Source: Rhodobacter calidifons
Lineage (GTDB): Bacteria; Pseudomonadota; Alphaproteobacteria; Rhodobacterales; Rhodobacteraceae
NCBI RefSeq assembly: GCF_011174775.1
Contig: NZ_JAANHS010000014.1
Location: 1-64,000 of the forward strand
Reading direction: 5' to 3'
DNA: 64,000 bases
Of this stretch, positions 5,288 to 34,844 are shown piece after piece (the first letter of the stretch is position 1; every line of letters starts with the position of its first letter). The position numbers were made by a program, and so were the translations under genes. The notes under the pieces are model-generated. The model made no database searches. It was not told the origin of the DNA and saw only the letters and a program-made list of their open reading frames with translations.

Positions 5288-6753
5288 TCAGACCCCGTAG
5301 ATCGCCCCGAACTTGGCCTCCAGATAGTCCAGGAGCGGCCCCTCCGACGGCTCGAACCCGCAGGCGCGCCGCACGACATCCCGGGGCTCATAAAGGCCCC
5401 CATGCCGCTGCACCCGCTCCCGCAGCCACCCCGTCGCCGCCGACACGTCCCCGCGCTCCATCTGGCCGTCCAGCCCCGGAATGTCCGCCCGCAGGGCCTT
5501 GACCAGACAGCCCGCATAGACGTTGCCCAGCGTGTAGGTCGGGAAATAGCCGAACAGCCCGCAGGACCAGTGCACGTCCTGCAACATCCCGTTCGAGGGC
5601 CGGTCCACCGCCACCCCGAAATCCGCCCGGAAACGGTCGTTCCAGGCCGCCTCCAGATCCTCGACCTGCAACTCGCCCCGGATCAGCGCCCGTTCCAGAT
5701 CGAAGCGCATCATCACATGCAGGTTGTAGTGGACCTCATCCGCCTCGGTGCGGATATAGCCCGGATGCACCCGGTTCACCGCCTTGTAGAAGGCATCCGC
5801 ATCCGCGATCCCGAAGTCTCCGAAGACCTCGCGCATCCGCCCGAACAGCCATCCGGTGAAGGCGCTGCTGCGGCCCAGCTGGTTCTCGTAGGACCGGCTC
5901 TGGCTCTCATGCACCCCCATGGACACGCCCTGCCCGATCGGCGTCAGCGCATAGCCTGCGTCGATGCCCTGTTCATAGGCCGCGTGGCCGACCTCGTGGA
6001 TCGTGGAATAGAAGCAGTTGAACGGGTCCGTCTCATTCACCCGCGTGGTGATCCGCACGTCGTGGCCCGACCCCGAACTGAACGGATGCACCGCCAGATC
6101 GATCCTCCCCCGCGACCAGTCATAACCGAAGACCGTCGCCAGCTCGCGGCTCAGCGCCAGCTGCGCCTCCTGCGGGAACACCCCCACGACGCCTTTCGGA
6201 GCCTCGGCGCCCAGCACCTTCTCGCGCAAGGCGACCAGCCGGGGCCGCATCGCATCGAACATCGCCGCAATCGCCGCCCCGGTCATCCCCGGCTCATAGT
6301 CGTCGACCAGAGCATCATAGGGATCGCCCCCCGCAGCCAGCGCCGCGCCCTCGGCCCGCTTCAGGTCCACCACCTTGCGCAGGGTCGGCAGAAATCCCGC
6401 CACATCCTCGCGCGACCGGCACTCGGCCCAGACGCCCTGCGCCAGCGACATCGTCGCCGCGATCTCTTCGGCCAGCTTCGCCGGAACCTTCATCGTCCGC
6501 GCATAGGACCGCCGGATCAGCCGCAACTGCGCCTCGCCCACCGCATCGGGGGCCTGCGCCGCCTCCAGCCAGCCCGCGATCCGCGGATCCGTGCGGCGGG
6601 CGTGCAGCACCCCTTCCAGCGCCCCGATCTCCTCGGCCCGCTGCGCTGCGGAGCCCTCAGGCATCACCGTCTCCTGATCCCAGCCGAGCCTGCCTGCGAC
6701 CTGCGCCAGGGCCTCGGTCTGGCGCTGGAACGCCATCAGTTCCTCAAAAGCGC

Positions 6754-6757
<4 letters not shown>
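5288..6757 (-). CDS. Carboxypeptidase M32 (Taq-type metallocarboxypeptidase)
   Basis: A 489-residue zinc metallopeptidase that removes C-terminal residues from peptides. The zinc motif HEVGH lies at residues 254-258 (His254, Glu255, His258), preceded by the family-typical HPFSSGSGHDVRIT segment and followed by AAYEQGID and GVHESQSR, which supplies the third ligand region. The length of about 490 residues is normal and there is no signal peptide, so it is cytoplasmic. The GTG start at 6757 overlaps the ctaA stop by four bases (GTGA), so the two genes are translationally coupled although functionally unrelated. It ends in a strong terminator hairpin. Confidence 0.92.
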
Positions 6758-10210
<3,453 letters not shown>

Positions 10211-27783: not shown

Positions 27784-28209
27784 TTACTCCGCCGCCCCTT
27801 GCGCGCGACCATGGGTCTTCCATGCCTGCGCTTCCTTCAGATATTTCCAGCCGAACGCATGGAGGCTGTCACCATGCGCTTCCCGATGCTTCAGCCGCAC
27901 CTGCCCCTCGTCGAGGCTGGGCTTATGCCCCGCAGGCAACCGCCACATGACGAACTGCTCCAGCGTCCCGACGCTTTCCCGGACCGTCAGGTTCGACACG
28001 GCCTGCGGGGCGCCCCCGATCTTGGTTTCCGTATTCCCGGTGCCCGGCTCGCCCGAACCTTCCATCATCCAGACGAACCCCGGCATCCGCTTGCCCAGCC
28101 CGTTCACCCGGTCGAGCGCCGCCATGAACTCGGCCACGCGCGGGGCGTCGGTGGGGGCCGGAAGGCGCCCCACGTTCAGCTCGGCCAGGTGCATGCCGGA
28201 CGGTGTCAT
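27784..28209 (-). CDS. DUF3291-like protein within nuo operon
   Basis: A 141-residue protein. The sequence [22 protein letters not shown], the [17 protein letters not shown] segment and [16 protein letters not shown] resemble the DUF3291 family, which has an ABM/dimeric alpha-beta-barrel-like fold. No enzymatic role is established. The ATG at 28209 overlaps the upstream DUF5333-like gene stop by four bases, and nuoG follows closely, so it is an integral part of the operon. No signal peptide. Confidence 0.7.
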
Positions 28210-28604
28210 TTCGTGGACCTCAGCAGCGATCCGGCCGGGGTGCCCTTGGCGATCTCTTCTTCGCCGATCTTGCAATAGGCGGCCGTGTTGCCCGGCTCGG
28301 CGCCCTTTGCCTTCAGCCATTCGGCGGCCTCGGCCTTGAACCTGGCCTTCTCCTCTTTCGAGCGGACGAAGTCGCGCACGACAGAGGCCTCATAGCCCTG
28401 CGCCAGAGCAAAGTCGCGCAGCTTGTTCAGCTCGCCCAGCGCCTTCAGCTTGCGCGCCTCGATCGTGGGGCAGTTGTCGGCGATGGCGTCGCCGATGAAG
28501 CCCTGCAACAGCTTCTCGCGGATTTCCGGGTTCTCGCTGATCGGCACCAGCGCCAGCACAGGCGTGGCGGCAAGGGTCAGGGACAGGATGAGGGTGCGAA
28601 GCAT
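28206..28604 (-). CDS. DUF5333-like exported protein within nuo operon
   Basis: A 132-residue protein with a signal peptide (MLRTLILSLTLAATPVLA) followed by a helical periplasmic domain containing a conserved Cys pair (IADNCPTIEARKL and AAYCKIGEEEIAKG). The pattern resembles the Rhodobacterales-specific family DUF5333. The start at 28604 is chosen for the signal peptide; the frame is open upstream. Function unknown. Placed between the small lipoprotein and DUF3291-like genes, suggesting an accessory role of the envelope side of complex I. Confidence 0.7.
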   Translation of the reverse strand: MLRTLILSLTLAATPVLALVPISENPEIREKLLQGFIGDAIADNCPTIEARKLKALGELNKLRDFALAQGYEASVVRDFVRSKEEKARFKAEAAEWLKAKGAEPGNTAAYCKIGEEEIAKGTPAGSLLRSTK

Positions 28605-28735
28605 GTTGTTCTCCTTGGCTGCTCGGGCCCGTCGAGGATCGACTGCGCCTGCGCCGGAGATGGGGGCAAACGCCCCTGATATGCCATGACAAACCGGGGT
28701 TATCAGGCCATCGTGACCGGAAACGAGGGCAGACG

Positions 28736-28984
28736 TCATGCGCAGCCCCCCGGATAGACCCAGGCACCGGCAGCGGGGTCATAGCGGTCGTAGATCGTGA
28801 CGCGCACGCCCCTCGGCCCGCACTGGGCATCCGCCGCCTTCCGTGCTGCCGCGCCCTCCCACATCTGGAACGGCTGGCCGCCGTTGGTGACGCGCACGGG
28901 CTCACGCGATGCGGGAACGGTCGCAACCGTCCCCACACAGGCCGCCTGGGCCAGTGTCACCGAAAGGGCCAGCGCCACCCGCAT
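28736..28984 (-). CDS. Small lipoprotein after nuoF
   Basis: An 82-residue protein with a short signal sequence [16 protein letters not shown]; the cysteine follows an AQAAC lipobox-like site. The mature part has GGQPFQMWEGAAARKAADAQC and an RVTIYDRYDPAAGAWVYPGGC ending with a second and third cysteine. The ATG shares a base with the nuoF stop (TGATG). The family is not recognised; the product is probably a periplasm-facing lipoprotein of about 67 residues. Confidence 0.65.
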   Translation of the reverse strand: MRVALALSVTLAQAACVGTVATVPASREPVRVTNGGQPFQMWEGAAARKAADAQCGPRGVRVTIYDRYDPAAGAWVYPGGCA

Positions 28985-30279
28985 CACTCCGCCGCGACCG
29001 CGCTTATCCGACCGGTGCGCCGGGCCTTGATCCGGTCCTCGATCTCGTCGCGGAAGGCGCGGATCAGGCCCTGGATCGGCCAGGCCGCCGCATCGCCGAG
29101 CGCACAGATGGTGTGGCCCTCGACCTGCTTGGTCACGGACAGCAGCATGTCGATCTCCTCGATCTCTGCCTCGCCGCGCACCAGACGGTCCATCACGCGC
29201 ATCATCCAGCCGGTGCCTTCCCGGCAAGGGGTGCACTGGCCGCAGGACTCGTGCTTGTAGAACTTCGACAGCCGCCAGATCGCCTTGATGACGTCGGTGG
29301 ACTTGTCCATCACGATCACCGCCGCCGTGCCCAGACCCGACCGCTGCTCGCGCAGCCAGTCGAAATCCATGATCGCGTCGTCGCACTGTTCCTTGGTCAG
29401 CAAAGGCACCGAGGACCCGCCGGGGATCACCGCCTTGATGTTGTCCCAGCCGCCCCGGACCCCGCCGCAATGGCGGTCCAGCAATTCCTTCAACGGAATC
29501 GACATCGCCTCTTCGACGACGCAGGGTTTCATCACATGGCCCGAGATGCCGAACAGCTTGGTCCCGGTGTTGTTCGGACGCCCGAAGCTGGCGAACCAGT
29601 CCGGCCCCCGGCGCAGGATCGTGGGCACCACGGCGATGCTCTCCACGTTGTTCACCGTGGTCGGGCAGCCGTAAAGGCCGCTTCCCGCCGGGAAGGGCGG
29701 CTTCATCCGGGGCATGCCCTTCTTGCCTTCCAGGCTTTCCAGAAGGGCGGTTTCCTCGCCGCAGATATAGGCCCCTGCCCCGTGGTGCAGATACAGGTCG
29801 AAGTCCCAGCCCGATTTCGCGGCGTTCTTGCCCAGCAGGCCCGCATCGTAACATTCGTCGATCGCGGCCTGCAACGCCTCGCGCTCGCGGATGTATTCGC
29901 CGCGGATGTAGATGTAGCAGGTGTTCGCCCCCATCGCGAAACTGGCGATCAGGCAGCCCTCGATCAGCGTGTGCGGATCATGGCGCATGATCTCGCGGTC
30001 CTTGCAGGTGCCGGGCTCGGATTCGTCGGCGTTCACCACCAGATAGGACGGCCGTCCGTCCGACTGTTTCGGCATGAACGACCACTTCAGCCCGGTCGGA
30101 AAGCCCGCGCCGCCCCGACCGCGCAGGCCCGAGGCCTTGACCTGCTCGATGATCGTGTCGCGCCCGCGCTTGATGATCTCGGCGGTGCCGTTCCAATGTC
30201 CGCGCTTCATCGCGCCCTTCAGGCTGCGGTCATGCATCCCGTAGAGATTGGTGAAAATGCGGTCCTGATCCTTGAGCAT
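28984..30279 (-). CDS. nuoF: NADH-quinone oxidoreductase subunit F
   Basis: A 431-residue peripheral-arm subunit that binds NADH and FMN and carries the N3 [4Fe-4S] cluster. The NADH/FMN loop [17 protein letters not shown], the FMN region [14 protein letters not shown] and the cluster motif [16 protein letters not shown] are all intact. Standard length. It is preceded by the DUF5337-like gene and followed by a small lipoprotein. Confidence 0.97.
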
Positions 30280-30288
30280 TTGGTCTTC

Positions 30289-30513
30289 CTAACCCTGGCG
30301 TCCGCGCCAGATCTGATACGTCACCACCAGGGCCCAGACAAAGCCCGCGATGGCCAGAAGGTCGAAGAGGAACACATAGCGCGCCTCCAACCCGAGTTGT
30401 CCGCCCAGCCACTGCGCCCCCATCCAGACAACCATCGTCCCGGCCAGGACAATCGCCACCAGCCGCGCCTGTCGCGCGCGCTGAAGCTCTGCCGGGTCGG
30501 GACGGGTCTGCAT
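30289..30513 (-). CDS. DUF5337-like small membrane protein
   Basis: A 74-residue protein with two predicted transmembrane helices (LVAIVLAGTMVVWMGAQWLG and YVFLFDLLAIAGFVWALVVTY) and a positively charged N-terminus. It resembles DUF5337, a small family found near nuoF in Rhodobacterales. It sits between the helix-hairpin-helix protein at 30535 and nuoF with gaps of 21 and 9 bases. Likely a membrane-embedded accessory of complex I, but this is only inferred from context. Confidence 0.7.
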   Translation of the reverse strand: MQTRPDPAELQRARQARLVAIVLAGTMVVWMGAQWLGGQLGLEARYVFLFDLLAIAGFVWALVVTYQIWRGRQG

Positions 30514-30534: not shown

Positions 30535-31149
30535 TCAGTAGTTGTTGGTCTTGGCGCGTTCGCGGAACGCCTCAAGCCCTTCGGTCACGATGATCTTCGC
30601 CTGCGCCACCCATTTGTCGCGGGTCACGCGGCCCTTGAAGCCCTTGAGGTTGGCATCGACCCAGGCCACATCGTCCTCCGTCCAGCTCGCGATCTGCGCG
30701 AAGTGGTAGAAGCCAAGTTCGTTAACCAGCTTTTCCAACGCCGGGCCGATGCCCTCGATCTCCTTCAGGTCGTCAGCCTTGCCGCCGCGCGGCGCCGAAA
30801 GCCGTTCCGGCCCGGCATGCGCCTCGGCCGGCATCGCGGCGAAGGCGGCCGGGGTTGCCGGCGCGGCAGCGGGGCCTTGTGCCGCAACGGGTGCCGCGGG
30901 CACCGGTGCCGCAGCCGCAGCCGCAGCCGCCGCGCCCGAAGCTTGCGCCACCGGGCCAGAGGGTCCCGCGCCCCAGGGCATCCCGAGGATCATACCGGCC
31001 AGCAGCGCCACCACGATCCCGATGGCCGCGGCCGGCGTGTAATCGAACTTGCCGATGATGATCAGCGCGGCAAAGGCCACCAGCCCCGCCGCCGCCCCGA
31101 TGATCCAGCCGCCCAGCCAGGGGGCATTCAGGTTCTCTGCACTGCGCAT
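30535..31149 (-). CDS. Membrane-anchored helix-hairpin-helix protein, paralogue of NuoE C-terminal domain
   Basis: A 204-residue protein with two transmembrane segments (residues 11-33 and 40-58), an Ala/Pro linker (65-110) and a C-terminal domain (121-187) beginning RGGKADDLKEIEGIGPALEKL. The GIGP turn is a helix-hairpin-helix signature. The same domain ends the next protein upstream (31212-32303) and NuoE (32368-33447). Such domains are usually labelled as predicted 5' DNA nuclease or L21-like domains, but nuclease residues are not evident. A protein-protein role next to complex I is more plausible from context. Confidence 0.75.
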   Translation of the reverse strand: MRSAENLNAPWLGGWIIGAAAGLVAFAALIIIGKFDYTPAAAIGIVVALLAGMILGMPWGAGPSGPVAQASGAAAAAAAAAPVPAAPVAAQGPAAAPATPAAFAAMPAEAHAGPERLSAPRGGKADDLKEIEGIGPALEKLVNELGFYHFAQIASWTEDDVAWVDANLKGFKGRVTRDKWVAQAKIIVTEGLEAFRERAKTNNY

Positions 31150-31211
31150 TCCATGTCACTCCCGTTCGGGCGGGCCGGCGATCCCGGTTTCCGCGTTGCT
31201 TCCTCTGGCCG

Positions 31212-32303
31212 TCACGCCTTTGCGGCTGCGGCGGCCGCCTCTTCCACAGTTCCTCCTTCGGCCAGGATCTTCGCCTGGATCACCCATTTGTCCCGCGTCA
31301 CGCGGCCCTTGAACGACTTCAGCTCGGCATCGACCAGCGCCACATCGGCATCGGTCCAGGCGGCGATCTGGTCGAAATGATAGAAGCCCAGACTGTTGAC
31401 CAGCCGCTCCAGCGCCGGGCCCACTCCGTCGATCAGCTTCAGATCGTCGGCCTTGCCCCCGCGCGGCGCGGTCAGCCGGACCAGACCCGAAGCCGGGGCC
31501 TTCGCGGCCTTCGCCCGGGGCGAGGCCTTCGGCTTCGCCGCCTTGGTCCTGGGCGCAGCCACAGGCGCCGCATCGGTGACCGGCACCGCCTTTGCCCCAG
31601 GCGCGGCCGCGGCCTCCGCCTTGAGTTCGGCCTTGCCCTTGAACCCGGCCGCCGGCTTTGCCGCCGGCGCGGCGGCCTTTGCGGCCCTTGCGGAGGTTCC
31701 GGCAGCGGTCTTGCCGCCGGCTGCCGCCTTGGTGCCAGACTTCGGTTCGGCCTTCGGTTTCGCGGCAGGTTGCTTTGCAGCGGGTGCAGGCGGCAACGGG
31801 GGGAGTTCCTCCGCCGCCGGGGCAGCCTGGTCCGGGACGGACGGGGCCTGTTGCACCGGCCGGGCGGCGGCCGGCGGCACCGGCTCGACCGGGCGCGGGA
31901 GGATGATCGGGGCGGCATCAAGCTTGGCAAGCGGCGTCACCGTCGCAGCCGGGCGCTGCGAAGCCGGCGAAGCCGCCTCGGGGCGCACCGGCACCGCCAC
32001 CACGGGCGAGGCCTGCGCGCCTTCGATGCCGCTGACGCGGGTCGTGCCTTCCGACAGGGCCGAGGCCGGGACAATCCGGCGCACCTGCCGCGCGGCCTCG
32101 GCGGCATCGTACCGGTTCACCGCGACCGCCAGCCGGTGAAGGACCAGAAGCACGATCAGCGCGATGGCCAGGGCAAAGGCAAGCGACGGGAACAGCATGT
32201 AGTCCAAGACAAAGCGCAGGACGACAAAGAAGATGAGGCCCGAGGCCACAACCAGCCCCCAGCCGCCCCTTCCGATCGTCGTGTCGTCGTCCTCTTCCCG
32301 CAT
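31212..32303 (-). CDS. Long membrane-anchored helix-hairpin-helix protein, second paralogue
   Basis: A 363-residue protein. An acidic N-terminus precedes two hydrophobic helices (about 15-37 and 38-62), then a 210-residue Ala/Pro/Lys-rich disordered region, then the same C-terminal domain (281-350, RGGKADDLKLIDGVGPALERL ... FKGRVTRDKWVIQAKIL) as the neighbouring 204-residue protein and NuoE. The Lys/Ala-rich linker (KAAAPAAKPAAG type) is reminiscent of histone H1-like tails, but the anchor argues for a membrane tether. The start at 32303 is chosen as the first Met with a consistent N-terminus. Confidence 0.75.
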   Translation of the reverse strand: MREEDDDTTIGRGGWGLVVASGLIFFVVLRFVLDYMLFPSLAFALAIALIVLLVLHRLAVAVNRYDAAEAARQVRRIVPASALSEGTTRVSGIEGAQASPVVAVPVRPEAASPASQRPAATVTPLAKLDAAPIILPRPVEPVPPAAARPVQQAPSVPDQAAPAAEELPPLPPAPAAKQPAAKPKAEPKSGTKAAAGGKTAAGTSARAAKAAAPAAKPAAGFKGKAELKAEAAAAPGAKAVPVTDAAPVAAPRTKAAKPKASPRAKAAKAPASGLVRLTAPRGGKADDLKLIDGVGPALERLVNSLGFYHFDQIAAWTDADVALVDAELKSFKGRVTRDKWVIQAKILAEGGTVEEAAAAAAKA

Positions 32304-32367
32304 CCGCCTACCCCATGTCACCCGTCCGGCCCGACCTTGGCCGGACCCGGGCACTCACAAGACACCT

Positions 32368-33447
32368 TCAGCCGCGCGCTGCCGCCTCGGCCTCTTCGAC
32401 ACTGCCGCCCGCCGCAAGGATCCTGGCCTGGGCCACCCAACGGTCGCGGCTGACCCGGCCCTTGAAGCCTTCCAGATTCTCGTCGACCCAGGCGATCTCC
32501 TCCTCAGTCCAGGCGGCGATCTGGTCGAAATGGAAGAAACCCAGCTTGTGGCACAGCTGTTCCAGCTTGGGCCCGATCCCGAGGATCAGCTTCAGGTCAT
32601 CCGGCTTGCCCTTGCGCGCGGCCTTCAGAGCCCTGGGCTTCTTTCCCACCGTTGCCGCAGGCGCAGGCGCCGTTTCGGCCTTCGGCTTCGGCGCGGGCTT
32701 GGCCGCAGGCATGGGCTCGGCCTTGACCGGCTTTGCCGCCCCGCCCAGCCAAGGCGTCCGCAGCGGCACTTCGGTCCCGTCGATCCGCTTGACCGTATCC
32801 TTCAGCTCCACCGCCGCCTGCACGCTGGCGTTATGGGGGTTCCGGCCCGCCTCGTATTCCTTCAGGCTGGTCAGCCCGCCCAGGGGCTCCGAGGCATAGC
32901 GCCCGTTCTGCGGCCCCGGCACCGGGACCTCGCCGTTGCGGAACCGCCCGATCAGAGCGCGCAGCTTCTCGGCCGTCAGGTCCTCGTAATAGTCCTTGCC
33001 GATCTGGGCCATCGGCGCGTTGGCACAGGCCCCCATGCACTCGACCTCTTCCCACGAGAACTTGCCGTCGGCCGACAGCGTATGCGGCGTCGGCGCGATC
33101 AGCTCTTTCGCCACCGCCACCAGCTCCTCGGCGCCGCAGATCATGCAGGAGGTCGTGCCGCAGATCTGCACATGCGCGACCGAGCCCACGGGCTGCAACT
33201 GGAACATGAAGTAGAAGGTCGCCACCTCCAGCGCGCGAATATAGGGCATCCCCAGCATGTCGGCGACATATTCGATCGCGGGGCGGCTAAGCCACCCCTC
33301 CTGCTCCTGCGCGCGCCACAACAGCGGGATGATCGCGCTCGCCTGTCGGCCCTCGGGATATTTGGTGATCTGGGCCTTGGCCCACTCCAGATTCGCCGGG
33401 GTGAAGGCGAAACTCTCGGGCTGGTCCTTGTGAAGACGGCGCAGCAT
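32368..33447 (-). CDS. nuoE: NADH-quinone oxidoreductase subunit E with C-terminal helix-hairpin-helix extension
   Basis: A 359-residue peripheral-arm subunit, about twice the usual 160-220 residues. The thioredoxin-like domain carries the N1a [2Fe-2S] ligands in [10 protein letters not shown] and [10 protein letters not shown]. After about residue 200 comes a linker rich in Ala, Pro and Lys, then a C-terminal domain ([18 protein letters not shown] ... [17 protein letters not shown]) shared with the two proteins encoded immediately downstream. An extended NuoE is known in Rhodobacter. A good ribosome binding site (GAGGA) for the ATG at 33447 lies inside the end of the 52-residue gene. Confidence 0.95.
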
Positions 33448-33450
33448 GGC

Positions 33451-33609
33451 TCAGAAATATCCTCTGGCGAAAGTCAGGACCACGGCAGCCACGGCGCCCG
33501 AGACGGCGCCCATGACCAGCTTGTGGCCATAGCGGGACCCAACGACCCCGGCCAGGCCCGCAGCCGCGCCCAGGATCAGGGTCCACAGATTGATCGTGAC
33601 GTCCGGCAT
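33451..33609 (-). CDS. 52-residue membrane peptide between nuoD and nuoE
   Basis: A short gene missed by length filters. The predicted product starts [21 protein letters not shown] and ends VLTFARGYF. Two glycine/alanine-rich hydrophobic segments (LWTLILGAAAGLAGVVG and LVMGAVSGAVAAVVLTF) flank a short basic turn (SRYGHK), predicting a two-helix hairpin in the membrane. The ATG shares a base with the nuoD stop (TGATG), and the stop is three bases before the nuoE ATG, so the reading frame fills the gap exactly. Such tight packing supports a real gene. Function unknown, possibly a complex I accessory. Confidence 0.75.
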   Translation of the reverse strand: MPDVTINLWTLILGAAAGLAGVVGSRYGHKLVMGAVSGAVAAVVLTFARGYF

Positions 33610-34844
33610 CAGCGGTCGATCTCCCCGAACACGACATCCATCGTGCCGATGATGGCGCTGACGTCGGCCAACTGGTGGCCCTTGCAGATCCAGTCCATCG
33701 ACTGAAGATGCAGATAGCCCGGCGCGCGGATCTTGGCCCGATAGGGCCGGTTGGTCCCGTCGGCCACCAGATAGACCCCGAACTCGCCCTTCGGCGCCTC
33801 GACCGCGGCATAGACCTCGCCCGCAGGCACATGGAACCCTTCGGTGTAGAGCTTGAAGTGGTGGATCAAGGCCTCCATCGAGGTCTTCATCTCGGCCCGC
33901 TTCGGCGGGGTGATCTTGCCGCGCGCCAGCACGTCGCCCTTCTCCACCCGCAGCTTGGCGCAGGCCTGGCGGATGATGCTGGTCGATTCCCGCATCTCGG
34001 CCATGCGGCAGAGATAGCGGTCATAGCAGTCGCCGTTCTTGCCGACCGGAATCTTGAAGTCGAATTCGTCGTAGCACTCATAGGGCTGGGCGCGGCGCAG
34101 GTCCCAGGCCAGACCCGACCCGCGCACCATCACGCCGGAATAGCCCCAGGCCAGCGCATCCGCTTCGGTCACCACGCCGATATCGGCATTGCGCTGCTTG
34201 AAGATGCGGTTCTCGGTCAGAAGCCCGTCGATATCGTCCAGCACCTTGGGGAAAGCCTCGGCCCAGGCGTCGATGTCGTCGATCAGCTGCGGCGTCAGGT
34301 CCTGATGCACCCCGCCGGGGCGGAAATAGGCCGCGTGAAGCCGCGCCCCGCAGGCGCGCTCGTAGAAGACCATCAGCTTCTCGCGTTCCTCGAAGCCCCA
34401 GAGCGGCGGGGTCAGCGCGCCCACGTCCATCGCCTGCGTGGTCACGTTCAGAAGGTGGTTCAGCACCCGCCCGATCTCGCAGAACAGCACCCGGATCAGG
34501 CTGGCGCGGCGCGGCACGACCGTCCCGGTCAGCCGCTCGATCGCCAGACACCAGGCGTGCTCCTGATTCATCGGCGCCACATAGTCCAGCCGGTCGAAAT
34601 AGGGCAGGTTCTGAAGATAGGTGCGGCTTTCCATCAGCTTCTCGGTGCCGCGATGCAAGAGGCCGATATGCGGGTCGCAGCGTTCGACGATCTCGCCGTC
34701 CAGCTCCAGCACCAGCCGCAGCACACCATGCGCCGCCGGGTGCTGGGGCCCGAAGTTGATGTTGAAATTGCGGATGCGCTGTTCGCCGGTCTCCAGGTCC
34801 ACCGACCCGTCATCATAGCTGTTGCGCCGGATGTCGCCGTCCAT
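33609..34844 (-). CDS. nuoD: NADH-quinone oxidoreductase subunit D
   Basis: A 411-residue peripheral-arm subunit related to the large subunit of NiFe hydrogenases but without the metal ligands. It forms the quinone site with NuoB. Diagnostic segments are [15 protein letters not shown], the [15 protein letters not shown] region, and the terminal [12 protein letters not shown]. Normal length for a separate NuoD (not fused with NuoC). Confidence 0.97.

Follow-up and report, generated by a model that had tools for sequence, protein, structure and literature searches.

The nuo cluster of Rhodobacter calidifons, lying in a window of 64,000 nucleotides (the whole stretch analysed; positions 1 to 64,000 of contig NZ_JAANHS010000014.1, assembly GCF_011174775.1), raises the question of why three consecutive proteins, the complex I subunit NuoE and two membrane-anchored proteins named here A and B, end in one and the same domain. 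The answer proposed is that A and B are, by their sequence, members of the protein-O family known from photosynthetic reaction centre-light-harvesting 1 (RC-LH1) complexes. Their N-terminal hairpin would dock in RC-LH1 and their C-terminal domain would bind a partner shared with complex I, a reading to which about an even chance is given. The parts concerned are as follows.

32368..33447, minus strand: NuoE, a thioredoxin-like [2Fe-2S] complex I subunit of 359 residues with a C-terminal extension (Pfam PF01257, 1.7e-51; NCBIfam PRK12373, 6.9e-169)
32371..32640, minus strand: NuoE copy of the shared C-terminal domain, residues 270-359, with a disordered linker to the core (alignment; AlphaFold2; PDB match 8yy9_O, 8.2e-37)
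31212..32303, minus strand: anchored protein A, 363 residues from the ATG at 32303, with N-terminal hairpin, long Ala/Pro/Lys-rich linker and shared domain
32139..32261, minus strand: predicted transmembrane hairpin of A, about residues 15-55, without Cys (hydropathy, sequence)
31215..31484, minus strand: A copy of the shared domain, matching 9wqv_a (1.5e-29) and 8yy9_O (8.9e-26)
30535..31149, minus strand: anchored protein B, 204 residues, with N-terminal hairpin, Ala/Pro linker and shared domain
30982..31116, minus strand: predicted transmembrane hairpin of B, residues 12-56, without Cys (sequence, AlphaFold2, Foldseek)
30538..30819, minus strand: B copy of the shared domain, residues 111-204, with a predicted fold resembling NusA AR2 (AlphaFold2, Foldseek)

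The start codon of A is our choice, and a longer GTG frame is present. The shared domain has about 75 residues. The first-pass annotation of this DNA had reported three consecutive proteins with a common C-terminal domain, one version fused to a subunit and two tethered to the membrane; its coordinates and frames were right, and the domain layout of NuoE, A and B is the one described. In the alignment the A copy shows 64% identity to the NuoE copy and the B copy 61% (65-66% over 75 model columns), and A and B share 77% of the same 75 columns with each other. At the DNA level, three direct repeats of 251 nucleotides form one family, in which two copies are 71% identical to the third. BLAST within the genome (3.62 Mb) gave E-values of 2e-56 (B itself), 7e-35 and 2e-30, so the likeness of the three copies is far beyond chance; a fourth copy was not found in these 3.62 Mb by BLAST or by profiles of 3 and 36 rows.

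The same annotation had explained the copies by tandem duplication, which holds in part. The A and B domains fall within one clade of 12 sequences (support 0.86), with the NuoE domain of the window outside it; therefore a duplication giving A and B is plausible, and the split of their domains from the NuoE domain looks older than that duplication. The NuoE domain of the window groups with the NuoE domains of close relatives, and the deeper tree mixes hosts. The tail of A (31212-31260 of the window) is NuoE-like (GGTVEEAAAA), as is that of A in one relative (L011, 3-170), whereas in three other relatives (L009, L017, L068) and in B it ends FRERA-x-x-N-x-Y; to judge by these letters, the tail looks like the result of gene conversion between tandem copies. 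A long NuoE had been called known in Rhodobacter. No published statement of this was found in a limited literature search; on the other hand, the NCBIfam NuoE model of 400 positions (PRK12373) extends into the shared domain.

The predicted structures agree with the layout. The two helices claimed for each anchored protein are recovered: hydropathy, with helices called by a threshold, gives two strong N-terminal helices in A and in B. For B, AlphaFold2 run with 19 other sequences gives helices at 12-31 and 37-56, with block means of the predicted local distance difference test (pLDDT) of 82-96, a disordered Ala/Pro linker (66-109 without structure, mostly pLDDT below 50) and a confident domain at 111-204. 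In the model of NuoE (with 25 others) the core is poorly predicted and the domain is confident (block means of pLDDT 88-97, residues 271-359); it follows a disordered linker, and it has the helices of B, in the same order.

Among solved structures, the nearest relatives come from photosynthetic RC-LH1 complexes, namely the chains 8yy9_O and 9wqv_a, which sequence searches with A and B matched at 9e-33 to 9e-26 (B against 8yy9_O, 9e-33). In a Foldseek comparison with the PDB, the hairpin of B fitted 8yy9_O at 0.9 Å over 45 columns and 9wqv_a at 1.5 Å over 49. The best fold match of the B domain was NusA AR2 (1wcn, 6ib8), with a TM-score by target of 0.66-0.70, a probability of 0.82-0.84 and 23-24% identity. 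None of the 24 Foldseek matches had an E-value below 0.001, those of 8yy9_O, 9wqv_a, 1wcn and 6ib8 being 0.69 to 2.5; short partial matches can give such high values.

The first of these chains, 8yy9_O, is protein-O of Dinoroseobacter shibae, found in its RC-LH1 by cryo-electron microscopy and mass spectrometry. The available sections of that report (PMC12079452) place its gene between nuoE and nuoF and describe residues 8-59 as a hairpin between the reaction centre and LH1, which is in contact with the L subunit and with the 11th and the 12th of the LH alpha subunits, is closed by a Cys10-Cys59 disulfide, resembles protein-U and may form an internal quinone path. They also note a likeness between its C-terminal domain and the C-terminal ends of three other proteins, namely NuoE, one that is called ATP synthase subunit E, and an endonuclease; its function they give as unknown. 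Thus the domain common to protein-O and NuoE, and the place of the gene, are already in print for D. shibae, since both are stated there (PMC12079452); protein-O is not named in the available part of PMC12654162. What is new here is the spread beyond phototrophs, the tracking of phototrophy by the hairpin, and the mostly acidic nature of the domain, its weak resemblance to NusA AR2 and its occurrence on further hosts.

A and B share with D. shibae protein-O the gene position between nuoE and nuoF, the N-terminal hairpin, the flexible linker and the C-terminal domain, and the genome of the window differs in having two anchored copies. On the minus strand the order is nuoD, nuoE, A, B, the gene of a DUF5337 protein and nuoF, with gaps of 64, 62, 21 and 9 bases from nuoE to nuoF. 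The second chain, 9wqv_a, belongs to the LH1-RC of Rhodovulum sulfidophilum and is homologous in hairpin and C-terminal domain; it is known here from its entry title, chain name, sequence match and fold match, and no paper carrying the code 9WQV was found in the literature search. Protein-U and protein-Y of Rhodobacter sphaeroides likewise form a two-helix hairpin between reaction centre and LH1 near the QB site, in the available parts of PMC10214105 and PMC12079452, but their primary sequence is given as quite distinct from that of protein-O (PMC12079452). The genome of the window has pufL and pufM, whose surroundings, read by eye, look like a pufQBALMX operon. It apparently ends in pufX without pufC, whereas the RC-LH1 of D. 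shibae has, in the part of the report available, a tri-heme cytochrome subunit. The family match together with pufLM therefore places protein-O family proteins in a probable phototroph, and by analogy A or B may dock in its RC-LH1. The earlier suggestion that the domains may couple complex I to another structure fits the matches to RC-LH1 chains.

To what extent the hairpin is fitted to RC-LH1 was asked across Rhodobacteraceae, in a sample of 198 genomes (that of the window included) from 197 genera. The domain is present in 181 of them. Scoring for pufLM by PF00124, with part of the genomes being drafts, gave 84. The main hairpin test used the 70 genomes (B of the window included) having NuoD, a NuoE domain and an anchored copy in the nuo run, called O below. 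On the hairpin tree pufLM changes 13 times against a mean of 23.4 after shuffling, and no shuffle out of 500 reached so low a number. The NuoD+E+F tree (712 columns) and those of the NuoE domain and the O domain need 23 changes each, which is the shuffle level. Without NuoD (76 genomes) the hairpin needs 13 changes versus 22, 22 and 24 for the other trees (shuffled mean about 25), and all 90 hairpins need 18 versus 29.2. Leave-one-out nearest neighbours predict pufLM in 55-57 of the 70 genomes by hairpin and in 34-44 by the other three. In partial Mantel tests given NuoD+E+F, r was 0.137 for the hairpin (0/2000 shuffles as high), 0.030 for the NuoE domain (67/2000) and 0.023 for the O domain (150/2000). 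Lastly, 33 disjoint pairs of one genome with and one without pufLM were picked greedily by core distance; the hairpin separates in 30 of them, and in the closest 16 pairs the hairpin does so in 14, the NuoE domain in 9 and the O domain in 11. The controls for this signal are the NuoD+E+F tree and the trees of the two domains.

Two motifs mark part of the phototroph hairpins. Pro-Leu/Met-[PSTH], close to where helix 2 ends or beyond that point, occurs in 17 of 52 phototroph and in none of 38 other hairpins, and Gln-[AGS] in the middle of the hairpin in 17 of 52 and 1 of 38. The Leu of the former reaches 5.7e-6 against a threshold of 5.7e-4 (200 label shuffles, relatedness ignored). O of the D. 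shibae type has the Gln motif and lacks the Pro-Leu motif; one sampled hairpin (G035) equals the corresponding stretch of 8yy9_O, and this genome is presumably Dinoroseobacter or a very close relative. The disulfide was also considered as a mark of phototrophs and rejected: a Cys pair is present in 25 of 48 hairpins from genomes with pufLM and in 27 of 37 from those without, and it characterises the single D. shibae protein, not the protein-O family as a whole.

The distribution of the gene bears on the same question. Of 135 stretches taken upstream of nuoF, 131 were usable (the window is not counted). These stretches hold an anchored copy in 48 of 64 loci with pufLM versus 37 of 67 without (p = 0.028), and restricting the count to genomes with a completeness of 90% or more gives 43 of 57 versus 35 of 64 (p = 0.022); the NuoE domain is present in 48 of 64 versus 60 of 67 (p = 0.038). 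Two anchored copies, as in the window, occur in 2 of the 131 loci (G068, G065), the second copy of G065 having one weak helix. A soluble protein bearing the domain stands directly before nuoF in 9 of the 131 (e.g. L105:3910-4740, L134:3690-4739, L163:3877-4740); its N-terminal part is phasin-like by eye, but the three tested had no Pfam phasin match and this assignment was dropped. A second conserved motif, of approximate form KPSxxLxGQxELAxRKGxWKYE, was seen in the linkers of 28 of 124 frames of nuo O, counting those without an anchor, and of 7 of 144 frames of NuoE (e.g. L087, L126, L161), and it is absent from NuoE, A and B of the window.

The domains of NuoE and O are also more alike within a genome than between genomes: the similarity is 0.690 within the same genome versus 0.651 with the nearest genomes, the same genome being better in 46 of 72. 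With the NuoE and NuoF cores as control, the partial rank correlation is 0.24 (0/2000 shuffles); an earlier run with the NuoE core alone gave 0.690 versus 0.660, and 10 of 2000 shuffles reached the observed value. This control is weak, because the distances of the cores were not correlated with those of the domains (Spearman 0.00 and 0.07). Such likeness would be expected if the domains had a partner in common.

The mechanism envisaged is as follows. The N-terminal hairpin would be an interchangeable plug for docking a membrane complex, and in phototrophs it would sit, like that of D. shibae, in the RC-LH1 gap that separates the reaction centre from the antenna ring, close to the route of the quinone. 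The C-terminal domain would hang in the cytoplasm on the flexible linker as a hook; it would be an acidic helix-hairpin-helix (HhH) module of the NusA AR2 type, binding a protein partner and not DNA. Since NuoE carries the same module on a linker of its own, we infer that one common partner may bring complex I and RC-LH1 together, or that the two may hold each other directly; in either case the quinone-reducing photosystem would be kept near complex I. In the source organism, B would be the likelier plug of RC-LH1 and A a duplicate with an unusual hairpin. If this is true, one docking domain is common to an RC-LH1 subunit and a complex I subunit whose genes are neighbours, which hints at a physical link between respiration and photosynthesis, and the arrangement of both chains in one membrane becomes directly testable by deleting one domain. 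Besides, a hairpin that follows phototrophy is a family-wide argument for protein-O as a real component of RC-LH1 and not a chance contaminant.

Several observations weigh against this proposal. In the D. shibae map, as described in the available sections of PMC12079452, protein-O is visible only at residues 8-59. The Cys pair that forms its disulfide is missing from A and B and is not commoner in phototrophs, and neither A nor B has either of the two phototroph-type motifs. The hairpin of A is close (0.24) only to that of its congener, A and B being otherwise far from all sampled hairpins; the five nearest neighbours of B on the hairpin tree all have pufLM but are distant (0.98-1.48). That the hairpin is adapted to RC-LH1, in bacteria possessing this complex, is supported by the pattern over the whole family, and more weakly for A and B themselves. 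A background signal is present, as the NuoD+E+F distance also follows pufLM (r = 0.054, 5/2000 as high); the partners within the 33 pairs are no more than moderately near to each other (median core distance 0.123 versus 0.146 for all pairs), and in the paired test the NuoE domain separates in 19 of 33 (p = 0.012) and the O domain in 23 of 33 (p = 0.034). The likeness of NuoE and O domains within genomes could come from gene conversion, and the AR2 match has a poor E-value (0.86-1.1). As regards gene content, 75 of the 131 loci have both copies, 33 the NuoE domain only, 10 the anchored copy only and 13 neither, a weak co-occurrence (p = 0.029). The idea in the first-pass annotation that the three domains interact with one another fails as a general rule for this reason: an obligatory interaction was rejected, since NuoE-only and O-only loci exist and 28 of the 198 genomes have a single copy of the domain (counted from the table, drafts included). 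Finally, 37 of 67 loci without pufLM retain the anchored gene (35 of 64 under the completeness limit of 90%), which means that it must do something besides photosynthesis; a role restricted to the photosystem was rejected, and a second role must be supposed.

A rather unlikely alternative is that A and B are, in all these bacteria, accessory proteins of complex I, acting in assembly or as a clamp of the membrane arm, and that they were co-opted late into RC-LH1 or occur there as a side effect. The gene stands inside the nuo run in 85 of the 131 loci, phototrophs and non-phototrophs alike, the hairpin Cys pairs occur in non-phototrophs too, and the anchored copy and the NuoE domain are associated, if weakly. 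Against this alternative, pufLM is followed far more closely by the hairpin than by NuoD/E/F or by the C-terminal domains. Moreover, the complex I structures 8qby (Paracoccus denitrificans) and 9g83, which have this chain in identical sequence, contain a NuoE of 239 residues that matches NuoE of the window only to residue 235; for Paracoccus the comparison covers the NuoE chain. A passive, mobile C-terminal module, spread by duplication and of little function in each host, is very improbable: D10, G17, G19, Q36, R58, R61, W64 and Q67 (alignment positions) are strongly conserved across hosts and the NuoE and O domains co-vary, against which stands the patchy presence and loss of the domain, with both copies absent from the 13 loci mentioned and no match in 17 of the 198 genomes.

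The possibility that the HhH domains bind DNA or RNA, and so link the nucleoid or polysomes to complex I and to the membrane, is very improbable as well. DNA binding had been considered from the HhH motif (GxGP), and weak matches to HHH_5, DNA polymerase IV and RadA go in the same direction, as does the occurrence of the domain on ribosomal proteins L21, S2 and S1. Pfam HHH_5 reaches 15.6 bits in B, below its gathering cut-off of 27, and has no listed match in whole NuoE or A; a phasin with the domain (L204) passes it with 28.9 bits. The half of the domain that reads F-x-GR-x-x-R-D-x-W-x-x-Q-A was not seen among the weak HhH matches listed, and searches of Pfam and NCBIfam turned up no family dedicated to the shared domain. 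We take COG3743 to cover this domain. In the available part of PMC8686332, variants of polyhydroxyalkanoate synthase can have predicted DNA-binding extensions, and Halomonas PhaC2 matches COG3743, called there a predicted 5' DNA nuclease with an H3TH domain (data not shown). The charge of the domain argues otherwise, the mean net charge being -1.4 on NuoE, -0.9 on nuo O, -1.7 on single-helix membrane proteins, and -2.5 on both L21 and S2; among single proteins it is -7 on S1, but +3 on phasin and on polyhydroxybutyrate (PHB) depolymerase (PhaZ). The best fold match, NusA AR2 (AR standing for acidic repeat), is likewise an HhH fold that binds a protein, 6IB8 being titled as a SuhB/NusA AR2 complex; it differs in its low identity and its E-value of about 1. 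DNA binding as a shared function, and the DNA tether with it, were accordingly lowered by the acidic domain of most host classes and by the NusA AR2-like fold.

The preferred reading, docking in RC-LH1 with a partner shared with complex I, may be part of something wider. As a mobile module the domain is rare across the class, with 22 of 240 genomes, 3 of those being Rhodobacteraceae. It occurs on NuoE, on single-helix membrane proteins, on L21 (10 loci assigned by eye, L177 confirmed), on S2 (2 by eye, L181 confirmed), and in one confirmed case each on S1, phasin and PhaZ. The C-terminal parts of the NCBIfam models PRK12373 (NuoE), PRK12278 (L21), PRK12311 (S2) and PhaH (phasin) contain it, and 36 of 36 sampled domains match each of these, which differ in being models of whole proteins. 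Such hosts point to a way of gathering large cell assemblies, of which no description was found in the literature search. It is possible, if doubtful, that one acidic HhH module serves as a general alphaproteobacterial docking tag with one common partner, placed on complex I, the photosynthetic core (through anchored hairpins that vary with phototrophy), ribosomes, PHB granules and plain membrane anchors, and that in phototrophic Rhodobacteraceae the quinone exit of RC-LH1 is in this way joined to complex I, so that the nuo operon would encode a physical link between respiration and photosynthesis.

Records titled Leucothrix pacifica, a Campylobacterales metagenome-assembled genome and two Larkinella species also hold the domain. 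The Leucothrix record encodes a membrane protein of 1123 residues with six domain copies (L046:4468-7836), and those of Larkinella (L050 and L052, about 5716-6866) two adjacent genes for single-helix membrane proteins with one copy each. For S2 (L181), NCBIfam has another variant with an accessory domain ('sunset domain variant'), a possible parallel for appended ribosomal domains.

The neighbours of the three genes belong to the same nuo cluster, and the 30-kDa, 20-kDa and chain-3 subunits of complex I are encoded further upstream of nuoD.

33609..34844, minus strand: NuoD (49-kDa subunit), upstream neighbour of nuoE (Pfam PF00346, 2.8e-118)
30289..30513, minus strand: DUF5337 protein of 74 residues, between B and nuoF (Pfam PF17272, 5.8e-33)
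28984..30279, minus strand: NuoF, next gene of the same run (Pfam Complex1_51K, 3e-50)

A scan for promoters and terminators gave 1 promoter-like site (0.3 expected) and 2 terminator-like sites (2.1 expected), and was not used. The nuo cluster of the window contains several short extra genes. The DUF5337 gene (30289-30513) was absent from the list of the first-pass annotation, and the frame of a DUF5333 protein (28206-28739, minus strand; Pfam 6.2e-32) follows nuoF, a short frame separating both.

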